A stretch of DNA of 64,000 nucleotides from Prevotella sp. E13-17 (GTDB lineage Bacteria; Bacteroidota; Bacteroidia; Bacteroidales; Bacteroidaceae): assembly GCF_022024035.1 (NCBI RefSeq), contig NZ_CP091787.1, positions 1,054,001 through 1,118,000 of the forward strand, given 5' to 3'. The translations under genes and the position numbers were made by a program. This document shows positions 24,621 through 31,355 of this stretch, in pieces. Below the pieces are notes generated by a model. The model was given only the letters and a program-made list of their open reading frames with translations. It was not told where the DNA came from and did no database searches. How positions within the stretch are numbered: position 1 is the first letter of the stretch; every line of letters starts with the position of its first letter.

Positions 24621-26315
24621 TTACTTTTTCTTTAGATATTTGGCCAACTCCGAAGCGTTGGCGCGAAGTCCCTTGGCCATCGACTGGGCGTTCATCTGTG
24701 CACCTAGTTTCGAGGCATGTGTGTGATCCTTCTTGAAGTATTTGGCGCCAGCCTTCTCTTTGATCTGAGCCATCTTGGCCTGAGCTTTAGCTTTGTCGGC
24801 AGGCAACTTCTTCACGGCGAACTTCTTGTCGAGGAAGTCGGCCGAGATGTTATGCATATCTACAAACTCTACGCCTGTCTCTGCTACCACCTCGCGATAC
24901 CACCTGCCATAGGAGTCATCGCGGCGCTCCACCTTTCCGCCTGGCCACTCATTGCGTGGCGTCAGCGATACGAGGATGGGGGTGGCGCCCTTTTCGCGTA
25001 CGTCGTCGATCATCTTTTTCAGATACCAGCCAAACGAATAAACCACCTCATAGGTATCGTTGTCCAGATGATAGACGTGCAGTGTATCTTTGGTGCCGGG
25101 TATCACACCGCGTGCTTTGGCATCGGTGATGGGGCAGATGTCGTTGTGACCAAACTGGATGGTCACAAAGTCACCGGGCTGCAGCGAGTTGTAAACCTTG
25201 TCCCACAGTCCTTCGCGTATGAACGAACGGGTGGATCGACCGGCACGTGCAGCGTTGACAAGGGTGATCTTTGACTCGTCAAACACGGTGCTTGCCTGCG
25301 CTGCCCATCCCCACATGCCGTCTTCTTCCTTGTCGGCATTCTTCACGGTCGAGTCGCCTGTGAAGAAGACTGCGGGCTTGCCGCTGCTGCGATCCACACG
25401 ATAGACCTCGGGTTCTACGTTCTTCATCATGGCTTGCAGTGGCTTTAATTGTGGGTTCTGGCTCTCCCAAAGTCCCTCGGCTGCCGAGCGTGCGTTCATC
25501 TCGGCACCAAATTTAGACGTGTGTATCTTGTCGCCCAAGAAGTGATACTGTTCTTTCCAGTGACTATAGCTGTCCAGTTTTTGGCCGCTTCGCTCGTTCA
25601 AGTCAACGTATGGCACACCTTCAACCGCAGCCATGTAGGCAGCCCACATGGAGTGTGGCTTACGAACGATTTTGCCTTTGTCATCGTAAGCGTCGCGCGG
25701 TGTCAGCGACATCAGGATAGGGTTGGCACCTTTAGCTCTGATTTCCGAGATGTAGCGATGCAGATAGGCACCGTAGGAATAAACCGTATCCGTTTTTTGT
25801 GTGCGCTGATTGAAACCGACATAGAGCGTGTCGGGGTCAACACCGGGTATCACAGCGCGTGCGCGCTTTTGGTCAAAGAACTCGCCATTGTCGTTGTGAC
25901 CAATCGATACGATGACCCAGTCGCCTGGTTTCAGCGCATCGCGGACGGCGGGCCACAGGTCTGTATAGAACGTACGTGTTGACATGCCGCCCAAAGCCTG
26001 GTTCTCTACCGTGATCTTTGATTCGTCAAAGTATTTGTTGGCAAAATAGCCCCAGCCCCATTGTCCGTTAGAACCATTGCCTTTTGTGCCGTTGCGCATC
26101 GTAGAATTGCCGATGAGATACAGCACGGGGTGATTGCCTTTGCGGCTGCTTCCGGGCGCTGGGCGCGACATGAGAGCCTTGGCAATAGAGTCGGGGGTGT
26201 TGTCCACCACCTTGTTAACGTCTTCGATAGGGTCGGGCAGATTGTCGAAACCTTGAGCCGAAGCCGTGAGACCCAGCATCAAGACCGTCATTGTAGAAAG
26301 TAGTTTCCTTGTCAT
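24621..26315 (-). CDS. Secreted tandem SGNH esterase, rhamnogalacturonan acetylesterase-like
   Basis: The 564 residues form a type I signal peptide (from the ATG at 26315, ending Ala-Ser-Ala-Gln) and two homologous SGNH/CE12-type domains (about 60-300 and 320-560). The second domain has the full Gly-Asp-Ser-Thr, Gly-His-Asn-Asp and Asp-His-Thr-His blocks. The first has Gly-Asn-Ser-Thr in place of Gly-Asp-Ser-Thr but keeps the nucleophilic Ser, Gly-His-Asn-Asp and an Asp-x-x-His. CE12 enzymes remove acetyl groups from rhamnogalacturonan in pectin, which fits a plant-fibre degrading gut or rumen organism. A longer frame to 26429 runs over the promoter and is rejected. No SusC/D genes lie nearby. 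Confidence 0.82.
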   Translation of the reverse strand: MTRKLLSTMTVLMLGLTASAQGFDNLPDPIEDVNKVVDNTPDSIAKALMSRPAPGSSRKGNHPVLYLIGNSTMRNGTKGNGSNGQWGWGYFANKYFDESKITVENQALGGMSTRTFYTDLWPAVRDALKPGDWVIVSIGHNDNGEFFDQKRARAVIPGVDPDTLYVGFNQRTQKTDTVYSYGAYLHRYISEIRAKGANPILMSLTPRDAYDDKGKIVRKPHSMWAAYMAAVEGVPYVDLNERSGQKLDSYSHWKEQYHFLGDKIHTSKFGAEMNARSAAEGLWESQNPQLKPLQAMMKNVEPEVYRVDRSSGKPAVFFTGDSTVKNADKEEDGMWGWAAQASTVFDESKITLVNAARAGRSTRSFIREGLWDKVYNSLQPGDFVTIQFGHNDICPITDAKARGVIPGTKDTLHVYHLDNDTYEVVYSFGWYLKKMIDDVREKGATPILVSLTPRNEWPGGKVERRDDSYGRWYREVVAETGVEFVDMHNISADFLDKKFAVKKLPADKAKAQAKMAQIKEKAGAKYFKKDHTHASKLGAQMNAQSMAKGLRANASELAKYLKKK

Positions 26316-26348
26316 TGTAGTTTGTAATAAGATTGGTTGTGTAGGTTG

Positions 26349-26356
26349 CAAAGTTA
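26349..26356 (-). promoter_or_regulatory. -7 box of the esterase gene
   Basis: TAACTTTG on the minus strand, 33 bp before the signal-peptide ATG at 26315. It is divergent from the guanine deaminase promoter; the -33 element is weak. Confidence 0.5.
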
Positions 26357-26399
26357 CTACTTTTTTTCGACTATCCATGTTCTTATTCCTTTTTTTTCG

Positions 26400-27886: not shown

Positions 27887-29614
27887 TTACTCGGCCTCTT
27901 TCTCTACAGCACGGAAATTGTCGAGGTCTTCTACCTGGAAGTTCTTGATGTATGCAGCCTTACCGCAAACATCTTCCTCGGTCATGCGAACATATACGTT
28001 GGCACTCTTCTCGAAAAGCTCTGGTGCCTTGGTGGCATCGCGGAGGATGAGCAGACTCATCACGATCTCGGCAGTCATGTCGTACAGACGGCGAGCCAAG
28101 AAGTCGTGAGCATCCTGATTGTCGAGAGCTTTCACAGTGTTCAGAGCCTCCTCGTAAACAGGAACGAGCTTTTCTACGCGAGCCTTCAGGTTCTTCAGAC
28201 TGTCGCTCACCTCAAGACCTGCCAGCATCTCCTTGATGTTGTTCAGCATGGTGCCGTTAGTGATGTAACGGATAGCAGCTACAACCTGCAACTGAGTGGT
28301 ACCCTCGTAGATAGAGAAGATGCGTGCATCGCGGAACAAGCGCTGGCTCTTGTATTCCATGATGAAACCAGAACCACCGTGGATGCTGATGGCATCATAT
28401 GCGTTCTGGTTGGCATACTCAGAGTTCATACCCTTGGCCAGTGGCGTGAAAGCGTCAGCCAAACGCTGATATTTCTTCAACTCCTGCTTCTCCTCGGGCG
28501 TAAGTTTGCGGTCGCGCTCGATATCCTCAAGACACTTGTAGATATCTACATAAGCGGCTGTCTCATAGAGCAATGCACGACCGGCATCGAGCTTGGCCTT
28601 CATGCGAGAGAGCATGTCATAGACAGCGGGGAAGTTGATAATCTTGTCACCAAACTGCTGACGCTCCTTGGCGTAAGCCAGTCCCTCGTTGTAAGCCTCC
28701 TGCTCTACACCTACGCTCTGTGCGGCGATACCCAGACGGGCACCGTTCATCAGAGCCATCACATACTTGATCAGACCGAGACGAGTGCTACCGCAAAGCT
28801 CTGCCTTAGCGTTCTTATAAGTCAGCTCACAGGTAGGTGAACCGTGGATACCCAGCTTGTGCTCGATGTGACGAACGTCAACACCGCCTTGGCGCTTGTC
28901 GTAGATGAACATTGACAGACCACGTCCGTCCTTGGTGCCTTCCTCAGAACGAGCCAGCACGAGGTGGATGTCGCTATCACCATTGGTGATGAAACGCTTC
29001 ACACCGTTCAGTCGCCAGCAGTTCTCCTTCTCGTCGAAGGTCGCCTTCAGCATCACGCGCTGCAGGTCAGAACCAGCATCAGGCTCAGTCAGGTCCATAC
29101 TCATACCCTCACCAGCGCAAACGCGGGGGATATACTTCTGGCGCTGCTCCTCGCTGCCGAACTCATACAGAGTGTCGATACAGCTCTGCAAGCTCCAGAT
29201 GTTCTGGAAACCAGCATCAGCAGCCGAAATCATCTCAGAGAGCATAGAGAACACAGCATTAGGCAGGTTCAGACCGCCGTAACGGCGAGGCATGCTTACA
29301 CCCCACAGACCGGCCTTGCGGGTGGCGTCGAGGTTCTCATAAGTCTTAGAGGCATAGATCATACGACCGTTCTCGAGGTGCGGACCTTCCAGGTCAACGC
29401 TCTCAGAGTTAGGCTCAATGATGTTTGCAGCCACGTCGCCGGTGATGTCGAGAATCTGCTTGTAGTTCTCGATGGCATCGCCCAGGTCAACGGGGGCATA
29501 GTCATATTCTTTCGCATCAGCGAAACCCTTTTCTTTCAGCTCAACGATACGAGCCATCAGGGGGTGGTTCAAGTAGAACCCGATCTCAGGATGATCGCTA
29601 TAATAGTTTGCCAT
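27887..29614 (-). CDS. Acyl-CoA dehydrogenase
   Basis: This 575-residue flavoenzyme is of the long acyl-CoA dehydrogenase group with an extra C-terminal domain. It has the FAD/substrate segments Met-Asp-Leu-Thr-Glu-Pro-Asp-Ala-Gly-Ser-Asp near 173-183 and Arg-Phe-Ile-Thr-Asn-Gly, and the catalytic Glu near 435 in Ile-Tyr-Glu-Gly-Thr-Thr-Gln. It oxidises an acyl-CoA (or works as a reductase) and passes electrons to EtfAB, encoded upstream in the same direction. The substrate chain length is not readable. Only six bases of original leader separate its ATG from the end of the DUF559 cassette, so its ribosome-binding region is now supplied by that repeat. Confidence 0.92.
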   Translation of the reverse strand: MANYYSDHPEIGFYLNHPLMARIVELKEKGFADAKEYDYAPVDLGDAIENYKQILDITGDVAANIIEPNSESVDLEGPHLENGRMIYASKTYENLDATRKAGLWGVSMPRRYGGLNLPNAVFSMLSEMISAADAGFQNIWSLQSCIDTLYEFGSEEQRQKYIPRVCAGEGMSMDLTEPDAGSDLQRVMLKATFDEKENCWRLNGVKRFITNGDSDIHLVLARSEEGTKDGRGLSMFIYDKRQGGVDVRHIEHKLGIHGSPTCELTYKNAKAELCGSTRLGLIKYVMALMNGARLGIAAQSVGVEQEAYNEGLAYAKERQQFGDKIINFPAVYDMLSRMKAKLDAGRALLYETAAYVDIYKCLEDIERDRKLTPEEKQELKKYQRLADAFTPLAKGMNSEYANQNAYDAISIHGGSGFIMEYKSQRLFRDARIFSIYEGTTQLQVVAAIRYITNGTMLNNIKEMLAGLEVSDSLKNLKARVEKLVPVYEEALNTVKALDNQDAHDFLARRLYDMTAEIVMSLLILRDATKAPELFEKSANVYVRMTEEDVCGKAAYIKNFQVEDLDNFRAVEKEAE

Positions 29615-29619
29615 AATTA

Positions 29620-30137
29620 AAGCCTCACCCCCGACCCCTCTCCCAAGGAGAGGGGAGTAAAATGTTTTTTCCCTTGAAAGGGTGAAGGGTCGGGAGTTTC
29701 ATTTTTATTCGTTAAACAATAATTCTTTAATTCTTATAATGACCGTTTTCAGGTCGTTGCCTATTTCTTCGTTTTTGAAACGGATAACAGTAAATCCTTT
29801 ACTCTCCAAGAATTCTGTGCGGTTCAGGTCGTCCTGCAGCTGTCTCGGCTCGTTGTGGTAACCACCATCAACTTCAATCACTAACATCTTCTTGATGCAT
29901 ATGAAATCTGCAATGTAATCACCTATAGGGTGTTGCCTTCTGAAGTGATAGCCACAGTTAAGTTTCCTTAGTGCTTCCCACAATACTCGCTCGCTTTCAG
30001 TCATTTCCCCGCGATTCTTCTTTGCGAAATCTTTCAGCAGTTCATACCTATCAGGAGCCGCAGTTTCATAGTGATAGCCCATCGCACAGATACTATTTAC
30101 TCCCCTCTCTCTGGGAGAGGGGCTGGGGGTGAGGCTT
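29620..30137 (-). mobile_element. Putative mobile DUF559 cassette bracketed by inverted repeats
   Basis: 29620-29663 and 30095-30137 are inverted copies of one another over about 42 bp, differing at only a few positions. Each copy is itself a hairpin (CCCCTCTCC / GAGAGGGG) next to a C-rich CCTCACCCCC box. A diverged second copy of the C-rich motif lies inside the left end (about 29667-29697). Between the repeats sits one gene (DUF559). The unit fills the gap between etfA and acyl-CoA dehydrogenase almost to the base. No transposase is present, and no clear target duplication was seen at the edges. Confidence 0.65.
29705..30082 (-). CDS. DUF559 endonuclease-like protein (Vsr/PD-(D/E)XK fold)
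   Basis: This 125-residue protein carries the DUF559 pattern in order: Met-Thr-x-x-Glu-x-x-Leu-Trp near 37-45, Phe-Arg-Arg-Gln-His-Pro-Ile near 57-63, Ile-Ala-Asp-Phe-Ile-Cys near 68-73, and Val-Ile-Glu-Val-Asp-Gly-Gly-Tyr-His near 81-89. The acidic residues of the last two blocks form the likely nuclease site, as in very-short-patch repair endonucleases. The substrate is unknown. It lies inside the inverted-repeat cassette, on the same strand as the flanking etf genes, so it is probably transcribed with them. Its unrelated function and its position between etfA and its partner dehydrogenase point to insertion. Confidence 0.85.
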   Translation of the reverse strand: MGYHYETAAPDRYELLKDFAKKNRGEMTESERVLWEALRKLNCGYHFRRQHPIGDYIADFICIKKMLVIEVDGGYHNEPRQLQDDLNRTEFLESKGFTVIRFKNEEIGNDLKTVIIRIKELLFNE

Positions 30138-30138
30138 C

Positions 30139-31161
30139 TTACTTACTGTTCTGCTTATAATACTTAATAAGTTTGGGTACAACCTCTTCGACGGTGCCGT
30201 TGATGACGTAGTCGGCGATGCGGTTGATAGGTGCATCGGGGTCGCTGTTCACAGAGATGATGATACCAGAATCCTGCATACCAGCGATGTGCTGAATCTG
30301 TCCAGAGATACCGCAGGCGATATACACTTTGGGGTGAACGGTCACACCCGTTTGACCAATCTGACGGTCGTGGTCCAACCAGCCGGCATCAACAGCAGCA
30401 CGGCTACCACCTACTTCACCATGAAGCACCTTGGCCAGCTCGAACAGCATGTCGAAGTTCTCCTTAGAGCCTACGCCATAACCACCGGCAACAACGATAG
30501 GAGCACCCTTCAGGTTGTGCTTGGCAGCCTCCACGTGGTGGTCAAGCACTTTCACTACGAAAGCCTCGGGGCTCACATACTTGCTTACCTCTGGGTAAAC
30601 AACCTCCCCCTTAGCCTTACCCTCGTAGAGAGCTTTCTGCATGACGCCTGAGCGCACCGTAGCCATCTGAGGACGGTGGTCGGGGTTCACGATGGTAGCC
30701 ACGATGTTACCACCGAAAGCAGGACGAATCTGATAAAGCAGATTCTCATATACCTTATTATTCTTCTTATCCTCAAAAGGACCAATCTCCAGTTCGGTGC
30801 AGTCGGCAGTCAGACCAGAGGTCAGTGAAGACGATACACGTGGACCGAGGTCGCGACCGATAACGGTAGCACCCATCAGACAGATCTGTGGTTGCTCCTC
30901 CTTGAAGAGGTTCACGAGGATATCGGTGTGGGGTGCAGAGGTGTAAGGGAACAGGTCCTTAGCGTCGAAAACAAACAGCTTGTCAACACCGTAAGGCAGA
31001 ATCTGATCCTCAACCTTACCCTTGATGCCTGTACCGGCAACAATGGCATGGAGCTCTACGTTCAGTTCATTGGCGAGTTTGCGACCCTTGGTCAGCAGCT
31101 CCTGAGATACTTCCTGTACCTGAGTACCTTCTATTTCGCAATATACAAATACGTTGTTCAT
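30139..31161 (-). CDS. etfA: Electron transfer flavoprotein, alpha subunit
   Basis: This 340-residue protein has the N-terminal ETF fold (starting Met-Asn-Asn-Val-Phe-Val-Tyr) and the C-terminal FAD-binding domain with Gly-Gly-Ser-Arg-Ala-Ala-Val-Asp-Ala-Gly-Trp (near 235-245), Gly-Gln-Thr-Gly near 254 and the Ser-Gly-x-Ile-Gln-His region near 275. With EtfB it accepts electrons from the acyl-CoA dehydrogenase encoded downstream. The start at 31161 is chosen because upstream codons lie in a repeat element. The stop codon is two bases from the DUF559 cassette. Confidence 0.94.
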   Translation of the reverse strand: MNNVFVYCEIEGTQVQEVSQELLTKGRKLANELNVELHAIVAGTGIKGKVEDQILPYGVDKLFVFDAKDLFPYTSAPHTDILVNLFKEEQPQICLMGATVIGRDLGPRVSSSLTSGLTADCTELEIGPFEDKKNNKVYENLLYQIRPAFGGNIVATIVNPDHRPQMATVRSGVMQKALYEGKAKGEVVYPEVSKYVSPEAFVVKVLDHHVEAAKHNLKGAPIVVAGGYGVGSKENFDMLFELAKVLHGEVGGSRAAVDAGWLDHDRQIGQTGVTVHPKVYIACGISGQIQHIAGMQDSGIIISVNSDPDAPINRIADYVINGTVEEVVPKLIKYYKQNSK

Positions 31162-31168
31162 AACTTTT

Positions 31169-31355
31169 GAATGAAGAATGAAGAATGGAGAATGAAGAAT
31201 TTCTTGCGTCCCGCTGGTAGCAAGCGTCACCCTACGGGATGCCGAGCGGCTACCGCTCTTCTGACGTTCTGTCCTTTTGTTGAACCTGCATTACCTGTTT
31301 GCCCGTTTTGTTGGGCGGCAGCAAATTCTTCATTCTTCATTCTTAATTCTTAATT
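31169..31355. repeat. ~187-bp inverted-repeat element between etfB and etfA
   Basis: The gap begins with a run built on GAATGAAGAAT units (31169-31203) and ends with its inverted counterpart (31323-31355). Inside are a perfect 6-bp hairpin (31244-31258) and a second one (about 31209-31239). No gene-length protein is encoded; a 60-codon frame on the plus strand is only the translated repeat. The structure resembles a miniature inverted-repeat element. Confidence 0.6.

Follow-up and report, generated by a model that had tools for sequence, protein, structure and literature searches.

GTAG and CGTC REPs have been defined, and REPs within genes reported, by Di Nocera et al. (2013, PMC3733652), who describe CGTC REPs as having no dedicated transposase and state for them the open question of palindromic repeat families without a known transposase. 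A review describes the structure of the EDxHD catalytic domain of I-Bth0305I (PMC3943268), a DNA damage response of Caulobacter cells without ScmA depends on VsrA (PMC12907096), and recurrent recombination has been reported for a Legionella segment carrying a transposase and a DUF559 gene. A search by title and abstract opening found no literature linking DUF559 to palindromic repeats; the subscription literature lay largely outside this search, and the negative result falls short of proving novelty. Here we examine a DUF559 gene set between hairpin repeats, which we consider probably to belong to a mobile family of REP-like elements. In the autonomous form of this family, a DUF559 nuclease gene would lie between inverted C-rich hairpin repeats, with the nuclease replacing the RAYT.

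The window analyzed, a stretch of 64,000 nt, covers positions 1054001-1118000 of contig C1 of the 3.45-Mb source genome (G000). In it, the genes for an acyl-CoA dehydrogenase (acd, 27887..29614, minus strand) and the alpha subunit of an electron transfer flavoprotein (etfA, 30139..31230, minus strand), both assigned by ORF call and domain match, are separated by a gap of 524 nt (29615..30138), compared with 2 nt (TT) in the relative G031. The etfA start is called as GTG at 31230, and an ATG further downstream is likelier. Within the gap, a predicted DUF559 nuclease gene of 125 aa (29705..30082, minus strand; ORF call, Pfam, and an alignment of 24 sequences) lies between terminal inverted repeats identified by repeat search, one on the acd side, downstream of the gene (29620..29661), and one on the etfA side, upstream of it (30096..30137). 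The two arms are 42 nt long, 90% complementary, and 434 nt apart, and the class to which the acd-side repeat belongs is also found at the genome's four remaining DUF559 genes. Pattern search and folding as single-stranded DNA located a hairpin in each arm: CCCCTCTCC-CAA-GGAGAGGGG at 29635..29655 (9-bp stem, -10 kcal/mol, z -3.8) and CCCCTCTC-TCTGG-GAGAGGGG at 30102..30122 (8-bp stem, -8.7 kcal/mol, z -2.2). The window holds a single match to the pattern of the acd-side hairpin, vs. 0 in 100 shuffles, and the flanking inverted-repeat score of the DUF559 locus is 30, compared with 14 for the best of 194 random window places. A decayed inner hairpin, CCCTTGAAAGGG then GGGTCGGGAG, was read by eye at 29671..29696 and is perhaps a remnant of the second repeat of a doublet; a vestige resembling it is seen at the same place in locus L046.

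This arrangement confirms the earlier note, which had described a single DUF559 gene between hairpin-bearing inverted repeats of about 42 bp, nearly filling the etfA-acd gap and lacking a transposase. The note mentions neither the decayed inner hairpin nor the spread of this repeat class across the genome. Between the etfA stop (30139) and the acd start (29614), the repeats leave only 1 nt uncovered next to etfA and 5 nt next to acd, and DUF559 is the sole frame of at least 80 aa inside the insert. An Rfam scan of 8 loci gave no match above the gathering score. On the other side of etfA, the gap at 31170-31355 contains an AT-rich inverted repeat of 43 nt, 84% complementary, with arms 100 nt apart (GAATGAAGAATGAAGAAT ... 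ATTCTTCATTCTTCATTC), possibly a mini-element of another kind.

An acd protein search gave 30 loci including the source genome, 29 of them with a readable gap (the contig of L044 lacks etfA). Twelve gaps measure 1-23 nt and 12 hold other sequence. DUF559 with repeats is present in four (the source genome, G023, G026, and G016), each with its own matching repeat pair, and in G029 a single long palindrome of the same type stands without DUF559; a doublet without DUF559 was found in 0 of the 29. In G031, whose acd is the most similar (97%), the gap is TT only, and the sisters G003 and G026, with flanks 98% identical, have gaps of 5 and 611 nt, respectively. Because of the 2-bp gap in G031 and the contrast between the two sisters, the DUF559-plus-repeat unit at etfA-acd is, as judged from these comparisons, a mobile insert. 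A clean empty site in relatives had been named beforehand as a check on mobility; the empty sites in G031 and G003, together with the presence of the repeat class elsewhere in the genome, support the description of the element as mobile.

The same data bear on the proposal that DUF559 is a vertically kept Vsr-type mismatch-repair enzyme of the host and that the hairpins act as terminators or arose by chance. A role in VSP repair has been proposed for the DUF559 protein VsrA of Caulobacter (PMC12907096). However, the empty sites speak against such a role, as do the patchy presence of the gene (37 of 60 genus genomes, 0-7 matches each), the in-frame insertions within other genes described below, and a quick acd tree, on which the four etfA-acd carriers need 4 changes, no fewer than with shuffled labels. 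We consider a host repair gene very improbable.

The junction reads TAA-G-[AAGCCTC...GAGGCTT]-TAATT-ATG in the source genome vs. TAA-TT-ATG at the empty site. No target duplication longer than 2-3 nt (TA/TAA) was found among the few etfA-acd junctions compared. In G026, the five bases of the empty gap are replaced at the occupied site, flank bases are likewise replaced at a second G003/G026 difference that carries a doublet, and no clear target duplication appeared at the breaks between aligned blocks of these two genomes (~122 kb of blocks). A classical transposon or MITE, in which an unseen transposase cuts the terminal repeats in trans and DUF559 is helper or cargo, would account for the terminal inverted repeats and short derivatives, which are MITE-like, but it fits poorly with the lack of a constant target duplication, with a repeat variant that follows DUF559 (see below), and with DUF559 being the only sizeable frame in the insert, where the screen of transposases against hairpins covered Y1 only. 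We judge it improbable.

Other repeat-bounded inserts were encountered in these comparisons. The etfA-acd gaps of G027 (L047:1019-1485) and G004 (L064:3240-3760) hold a different small-gene cassette, unrelated to the DUF559 unit, in which AT-rich inverted repeats (GAAGTTAAG / GGAGTTAAC types) enclose a 23S_rRNA_IVP (PF05635) gene; both kinds of cassette use this landing place. Yet another repeat family, with GTAGGGACAGACGCCCTCGTCTGTCC in inverted copies, forms a polymorphic insert that distinguishes G026:C9 near 26164-26367 from G003:C18.

The source genome has five DUF559 genes, all of them bounded on both sides by C-rich hairpin repeats, with a different variant at each. Among 60 genomes of the genus, 37 have a DUF559 match, with 83 matches in total, 69 of them full length; the 14 fragments were left out, and the fragment loci L121-L125 lie outside the analysis. 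The 69 loci form 40 site groups, one four-locus group having been split by hand into two sites because its cross-links were weak. Using one scoring scheme throughout and calling an inverted repeat at a score above 14, we found such repeats at 51 of the 69 genus loci and at 60 of 73 other Bacteroidota loci (a named set of 80, less 7 that share sequence with a genus locus), vs. 0 of 118 shifted places (named loci only) and 0 of 194 random window places. The named loci above the threshold include Flavobacterium, a Sphingobacteriaceae, a Cytophagales, and a Paludibacter locus. No scoring inverted repeat was present at the other 18 genus and 13 other Bacteroidota loci, the latter including both Psychroflexus loci, one locus each from a Cyclobacteriaceae and a Daejeonella, and a further Bacteroidetes locus (FLAVO1).

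From the outside inwards, the repeat consists of a C-rich tract, two mostly purine bases, a hairpin with a C/T-rich 5′ arm, and often AG (129 of 243). The 243 hairpins, all located near DUF559 genes, were drawn from the genus and named Bacteroidota sets only and chosen as C/T-rich, and only the spacing and the two-base gap of this layout are informative, since the selection rule favours upstream C.

Outside Bacteroidota, 16 of the 43 plasmid-collection records with a DUF559 match were examined (chromosome-sized records included; four phage records with a match were outside the sample), and 7 of these 16 loci scored above 14, compared with 1 of 32 shifted controls. They comprise two Deinococcus loci, of which one lies between paaD and paaZ, a Pseudanabaena locus, three loci on separate replicons of a single Sphingomonas strain, one of them between sufB and sufC, and Sinorhizobium meliloti, where a 114-nt doublet, with a possible link to RIME elements, lies on either side of DUF559. 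Hairpins can be made out by eye at the Synechocystis, Picosynechococcus, Azospirillum, and Neisseria loci, which do not reach the inverted-pair score; no score above 14 was obtained for the Sinorhizobium sp. K101, Shinella, Methylobacterium, Photobacterium, and E. coli loci. On a plasmid of Synechocystis sp. B12 (L206), the BREX gene pglX is immediately preceded, or perhaps entered, by a DUF559 gene that has C-rich hairpins.

The repeat varies together with the nuclease. Among 51 loci, in the 1189 pairs whose members differ in both genome and site, the similarity of the repeats correlates with the identity of the DUF559 proteins (rho 0.35, with 0 of 2000 permutations as high), and mean repeat similarity rises from 0.33 at identity below 35% (18 pairs) to 0.76 at identity of at least 65% (17 pairs). 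For 25 of 37 copies, the repeat is nearer to that of the closest DUF559 relative, at another site in another genome, than to any repeat of the genome that carries the copy; the remaining 12 show the opposite or a tie, with a repeat that is not closest to that of the nearest DUF559 relative. On this co-variation, we regard nuclease and repeat as a cognate pair.

A search for the repeat elsewhere in the genome, with and without DUF559, had also been named beforehand, and the class was found in the source genome in both settings, dispersed, which supports the term REP-like. The genome contains 86 C-rich hairpins vs. 3 for the reversed control pattern. Among the 80 listed hairpins used for typing and spacing, 33 are of the exact L002 type, 7 of L001, 7 of L005, 2 of L003, and 31 of other types, and 37 of the 49 typed hairpins are over 2 kb away from the DUF559 gene of their type. 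Twenty of the 79 successive spacings fall within 60-140 nt (actual 72-129) vs. a random mean of 0.18, and 7 of these 20 doublet pairs are exact reverse complements. With short hairpins, doublets, and dispersed copies, the repeats are REPs/REPINs in the structural sense.

Across the 60 genus genomes, hairpin count correlates with DUF559 count (rho 0.65), with a median of 43 hairpins in genomes with DUF559 vs. 2 in those without. At least 10 hairpins are present in 27 of the 37 DUF559 genomes (which include those with fragments only) vs. 5 of the 23 DUF559-free genomes; the latter five have 13-28, the maximum without DUF559, vs. up to 214 with it. Four DUF559 genomes have 0 hairpins of the searched pattern. 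In a phylum sample of 118 genomes searched with a looser pattern (source genome excluded from the test; strong match, E below 1e-15), a hairpin excess of at least 10 over the reversed control was found in 23 of 48 genomes with strong DUF559 matches, 0 of 12 with weak matches only, and 8 of 57 with none (Fisher p 2e-4 for strong vs. none, the genomes being related). With relatedness removed, 6 independent pairs are left, too few for significance, of which 3.5 go the same way, 0.2 the opposite way, and 2.3 show no difference. Some weak PF04480 matches in this sample lie in frames of ~1500 aa (e.g., G131:C34, G154:C15), as a DUF559-like segment in long proteins.

We also considered that a RAYT (Y1 tyrosine transposase) mobilizes the REPs, with DUF559 as cargo, given that the source genome has three Y1_Tnp matches and that the doublets resemble REPINs. 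However, the C-rich hairpin pattern occurs in 0 of the 3 Y1 loci (~3.3 kb each), one of which has four copies of another repeat, and GTAG stands directly 5′ of the stem in 0 of the 243 hairpins. Hairpin count shows no correlation with Y1_Tnp count among the genus genomes (rho 0.11); the 16 genomes with DUF559 and no Y1 have a median of 29 hairpins vs. 1.5 in the 14 with Y1 and no DUF559. A RAYT as the motor was rejected on the Y1 loci and the counts, and we give this reading almost no weight. The other repeat is a palindrome, GATCATGGGGACAGG / CCTGTCCCCATGATC, with matches at 1026, 1076, 1958, and 2008 on both sides of the Y1 gene (L009:1026-2022).

A DUF559 homing endonuclease might instead enter pre-existing REP-like doublets that spread by other means. 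IS elements are reported to target REPs (PMC1525189), and the co-variation would also fit a nuclease adapted to its target repeat. Against this, the 29 etfA-acd gaps include no empty doublet, a single palindrome, and 12 gaps of 1-23 nt; in L002, L004, and L277, DUF559 lies between two doublets and outside any single one; and the 23 DUF559-free genus genomes have at most 28 hairpins vs. up to 214. We consider homing into existing repeats unlikely and favor a family in which gene and repeats would move as a unit.

Insertions are also found inside reading frames. DUF559 domains lie within stop-to-stop open frames longer than 200 aa at 29 of the 69 genus loci, and part of the host frames could be identified. 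By Pfam, DUF559 splits DegT aminotransferases (L004, L118), an ABC ATPase (L017), and a leucyl-tRNA synthetase (L031), lies within AAA_11/12 helicases (L020, L040), follows the main portion of an epimerase (L028), and precedes RNase H (L036), guanylate kinase (L039), YgbB/IspF (L025), and an amino acid kinase (L023). The two helicases carry different elements at the same place, shortly behind GPPGTGKT. Other elements occupy junctions, such as that between YicC and guanylate kinase (L001) and that between argininosuccinate synthase and an ArgC-type semialdehyde dehydrogenase (L005). Flanking frames are co-directional with DUF559 on the left at 52 and on the right at 55 of 66 loci (3 short loci of the 69 left out), which fits expression of DUF559 by read-through. 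The insert consists of DUF559 and repeats only, eleven scanned host frames that bear DUF559 contain no splicing domain, and with the 8 loci lacking an Rfam match, we found no sign of carriage by an intron or intein in this material.

Repeats without the gene behave like whole elements in entering conserved genes in frame. The CTP synthase gene pyrG contains in-frame C-rich doublets in the source genome (L244) and at one of two pyrG places in G034 (L245, other repeat type). The distance between anchor motifs is 51-69 nt in 23 of 30 pyrG loci, 135 and 162 nt in L244 and L245, and 81-126 nt in five others with other sequence, in frame in all 30. In the source genome, one open frame at gltB (L079, glutamate synthase by Pfam) spans four listed hairpins (265639, 265768, 266450, 267499). 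Seven listed C-rich hairpins lie within ~6 kb at gltB (G000:C1:264248-270436; L006, L075-L081). The pyrG linkers of G033, G001, and G035 (L246, L249, L250) hold other in-frame repeats (CTCACC and TTGAAGAATGG types), making this linker a hot spot for in-frame inserts.

The earlier note had called the element homing-type, a description that holds in part. Same-site copies cluster on the DUF559 tree (12 groups, 12 changes vs. a shuffled mean of 29.5), which fits homing or vertical descent with loss; taken singly, the argG-argC and helicase groups show no clear clustering relative to shuffled labels (65 and 500 of 500 shuffles as low). However, the etfA-acd, argG-argC, and yicC-gmk junctions were each reached by more than one clade, the etfA-acd carriers are scattered on the acd tree, and classical homing is insufficient because mini-elements sit at many unrelated sites. 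The separate clades at these three junctions and the dispersed doublets fit a transposition-like spread filtered by selection. We favor one system that would account for both same-site occupation and transposition-like spread.

The DUF559 protein of the locus belongs to PF04480 (116.6 bits against a gathering score of 20.6, E 6e-34). Among 24 aligned sequences, E55, D57, H61, D70, and R73 (numbering of the first sequence) are invariant, in the pattern E-x-D-G..H and D..R. Profile comparison matched 3hrl_A, an endonuclease-like protein of solved structure (E 4e-31), and 3r3p_A, deposited as a mobile intron protein (E 5e-7), which we take to be I-Bth0305I; PvuRts1I is a weak match of the DUF559 profile. 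We regard the protein as a putative EDxHD/Vsr-related PD-(D/E)XK nuclease. In the 4 of 15 DUF559 pairs that allowed computation, dN/dS is 0.05-0.14 (dS was not computable in the other 11). A defence-system identity was considered and set aside; PADLOC gave weak matches only: homing endonuclease (HEase, 9e-6), DpdF (3e-5), and a type II enzyme (3e-3).

The mechanism that we propose is as follows. The DUF559 gene would be transcribed by read-through from the operon or gene in which the element has landed. The nuclease, which most likely recognizes its own hairpin type, would nick or cut the element ends or the target, and repair synthesis would copy the element into the new break, with neither a transposase nor a long target duplication. 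Repeat-only doublets, with hairpins 72-129 nt apart, would be non-autonomous derivatives mobilized in trans, and insertions would survive where they are least harmful: at operon stop-start junctions, at N-termini, and in in-frame loops. The nuclease is here the presumed driver of movement. The earlier note had stated that the element moves through its own Vsr-like endonuclease; the co-variation, the copy numbers that track DUF559 and not Y1, and the 3r3p match support this only indirectly.

More broadly, and here we see the chances as evenly balanced, DUF559 nucleases may be dedicated mobilizers of a third, bacteria-wide, HUH-independent superfamily of palindromic repeats (C-rich tract, two bases, hairpin, AG), each nuclease with its own repeat specificity, whose elements and derivatives spread into operon junctions and into the frames coding for essential proteins, to which they add peptide segments. 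The sequence evidence suggests a little-noticed kind of mobile DNA, in which, across many lineages, repeats are accompanied by a candidate motor of unrelated nuclease fold, and the question of transposase-less repeats thereby becomes testable with one small protein and one hairpin. Such elements would explain odd inserts in conserved proteins, e.g., CTP synthase and glutamate synthase, and would offer a simple model of selfish DNA coexisting with dense bacterial operons. If the mobilizing role is true, a domain listed as of unknown function would gain a function. In-frame inserts also mislead the annotation of host genes.

Several known systems share features with this element. VsrA belongs to the same protein family, DUF559, but is discussed as a host repair enzyme (PMC12907096), whereas the gene here is a patchy, repeat-bounded insert. 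MITEs have terminal inverted repeats and short gene-less copies; the insert here is without a transposase or a clear target duplication. EDxHD homing endonucleases such as I-Bth0305I (PMC3943268; PDB 3r3p) have a related nuclease domain (E 5e-7), insert into conserved genes, and recurrently occupy the same site. They differ from the present element, in which no intron or intein is seen and one compact domain of ~105 residues is combined with hairpin termini and many unrelated sites. CGTC REPs and Rickettsia palindromic elements resemble it in their in-frame palindromes in coding genes, in dimers encoding 20-30 aa, and in having no known dedicated transposase (PMC3733652), but CGTC or TGTC stands directly at the stem in 0 of the 243 hairpins (3 of 243 allowing CCTC). 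DUF559 as the missing enzyme of the CGTC REPs was considered and rejected: besides this count, which concerns hairpins chosen as C/T-rich from the genus and named Bacteroidota, no CGTC repeat was found beside six proteobacterial DUF559 genes (Neisseria, Sphingomonas twice, Sinorhizobium, Methylobacterium, and Photobacterium), with one AATGACG match far upstream in one of the six loci. GTAG REPs differ in having GTAG directly 5′ of the stem, a placement seen in 0 of the 243 hairpins here (GTAG or CTAC lies within 1 nt on either side in 19 of 243), and none of the three Y1 transposases of the source genome is flanked by the C-rich repeats. REPtrons (REP/REPIN with RAYT) likewise combine short palindromic repeats, inverted doublets, a flanked autonomous gene copy, and many gene-less copies, and they employ an HUH tyrosine transposase where the present element has a PD-(D/E)XK/EDxHD-like DUF559 protein.
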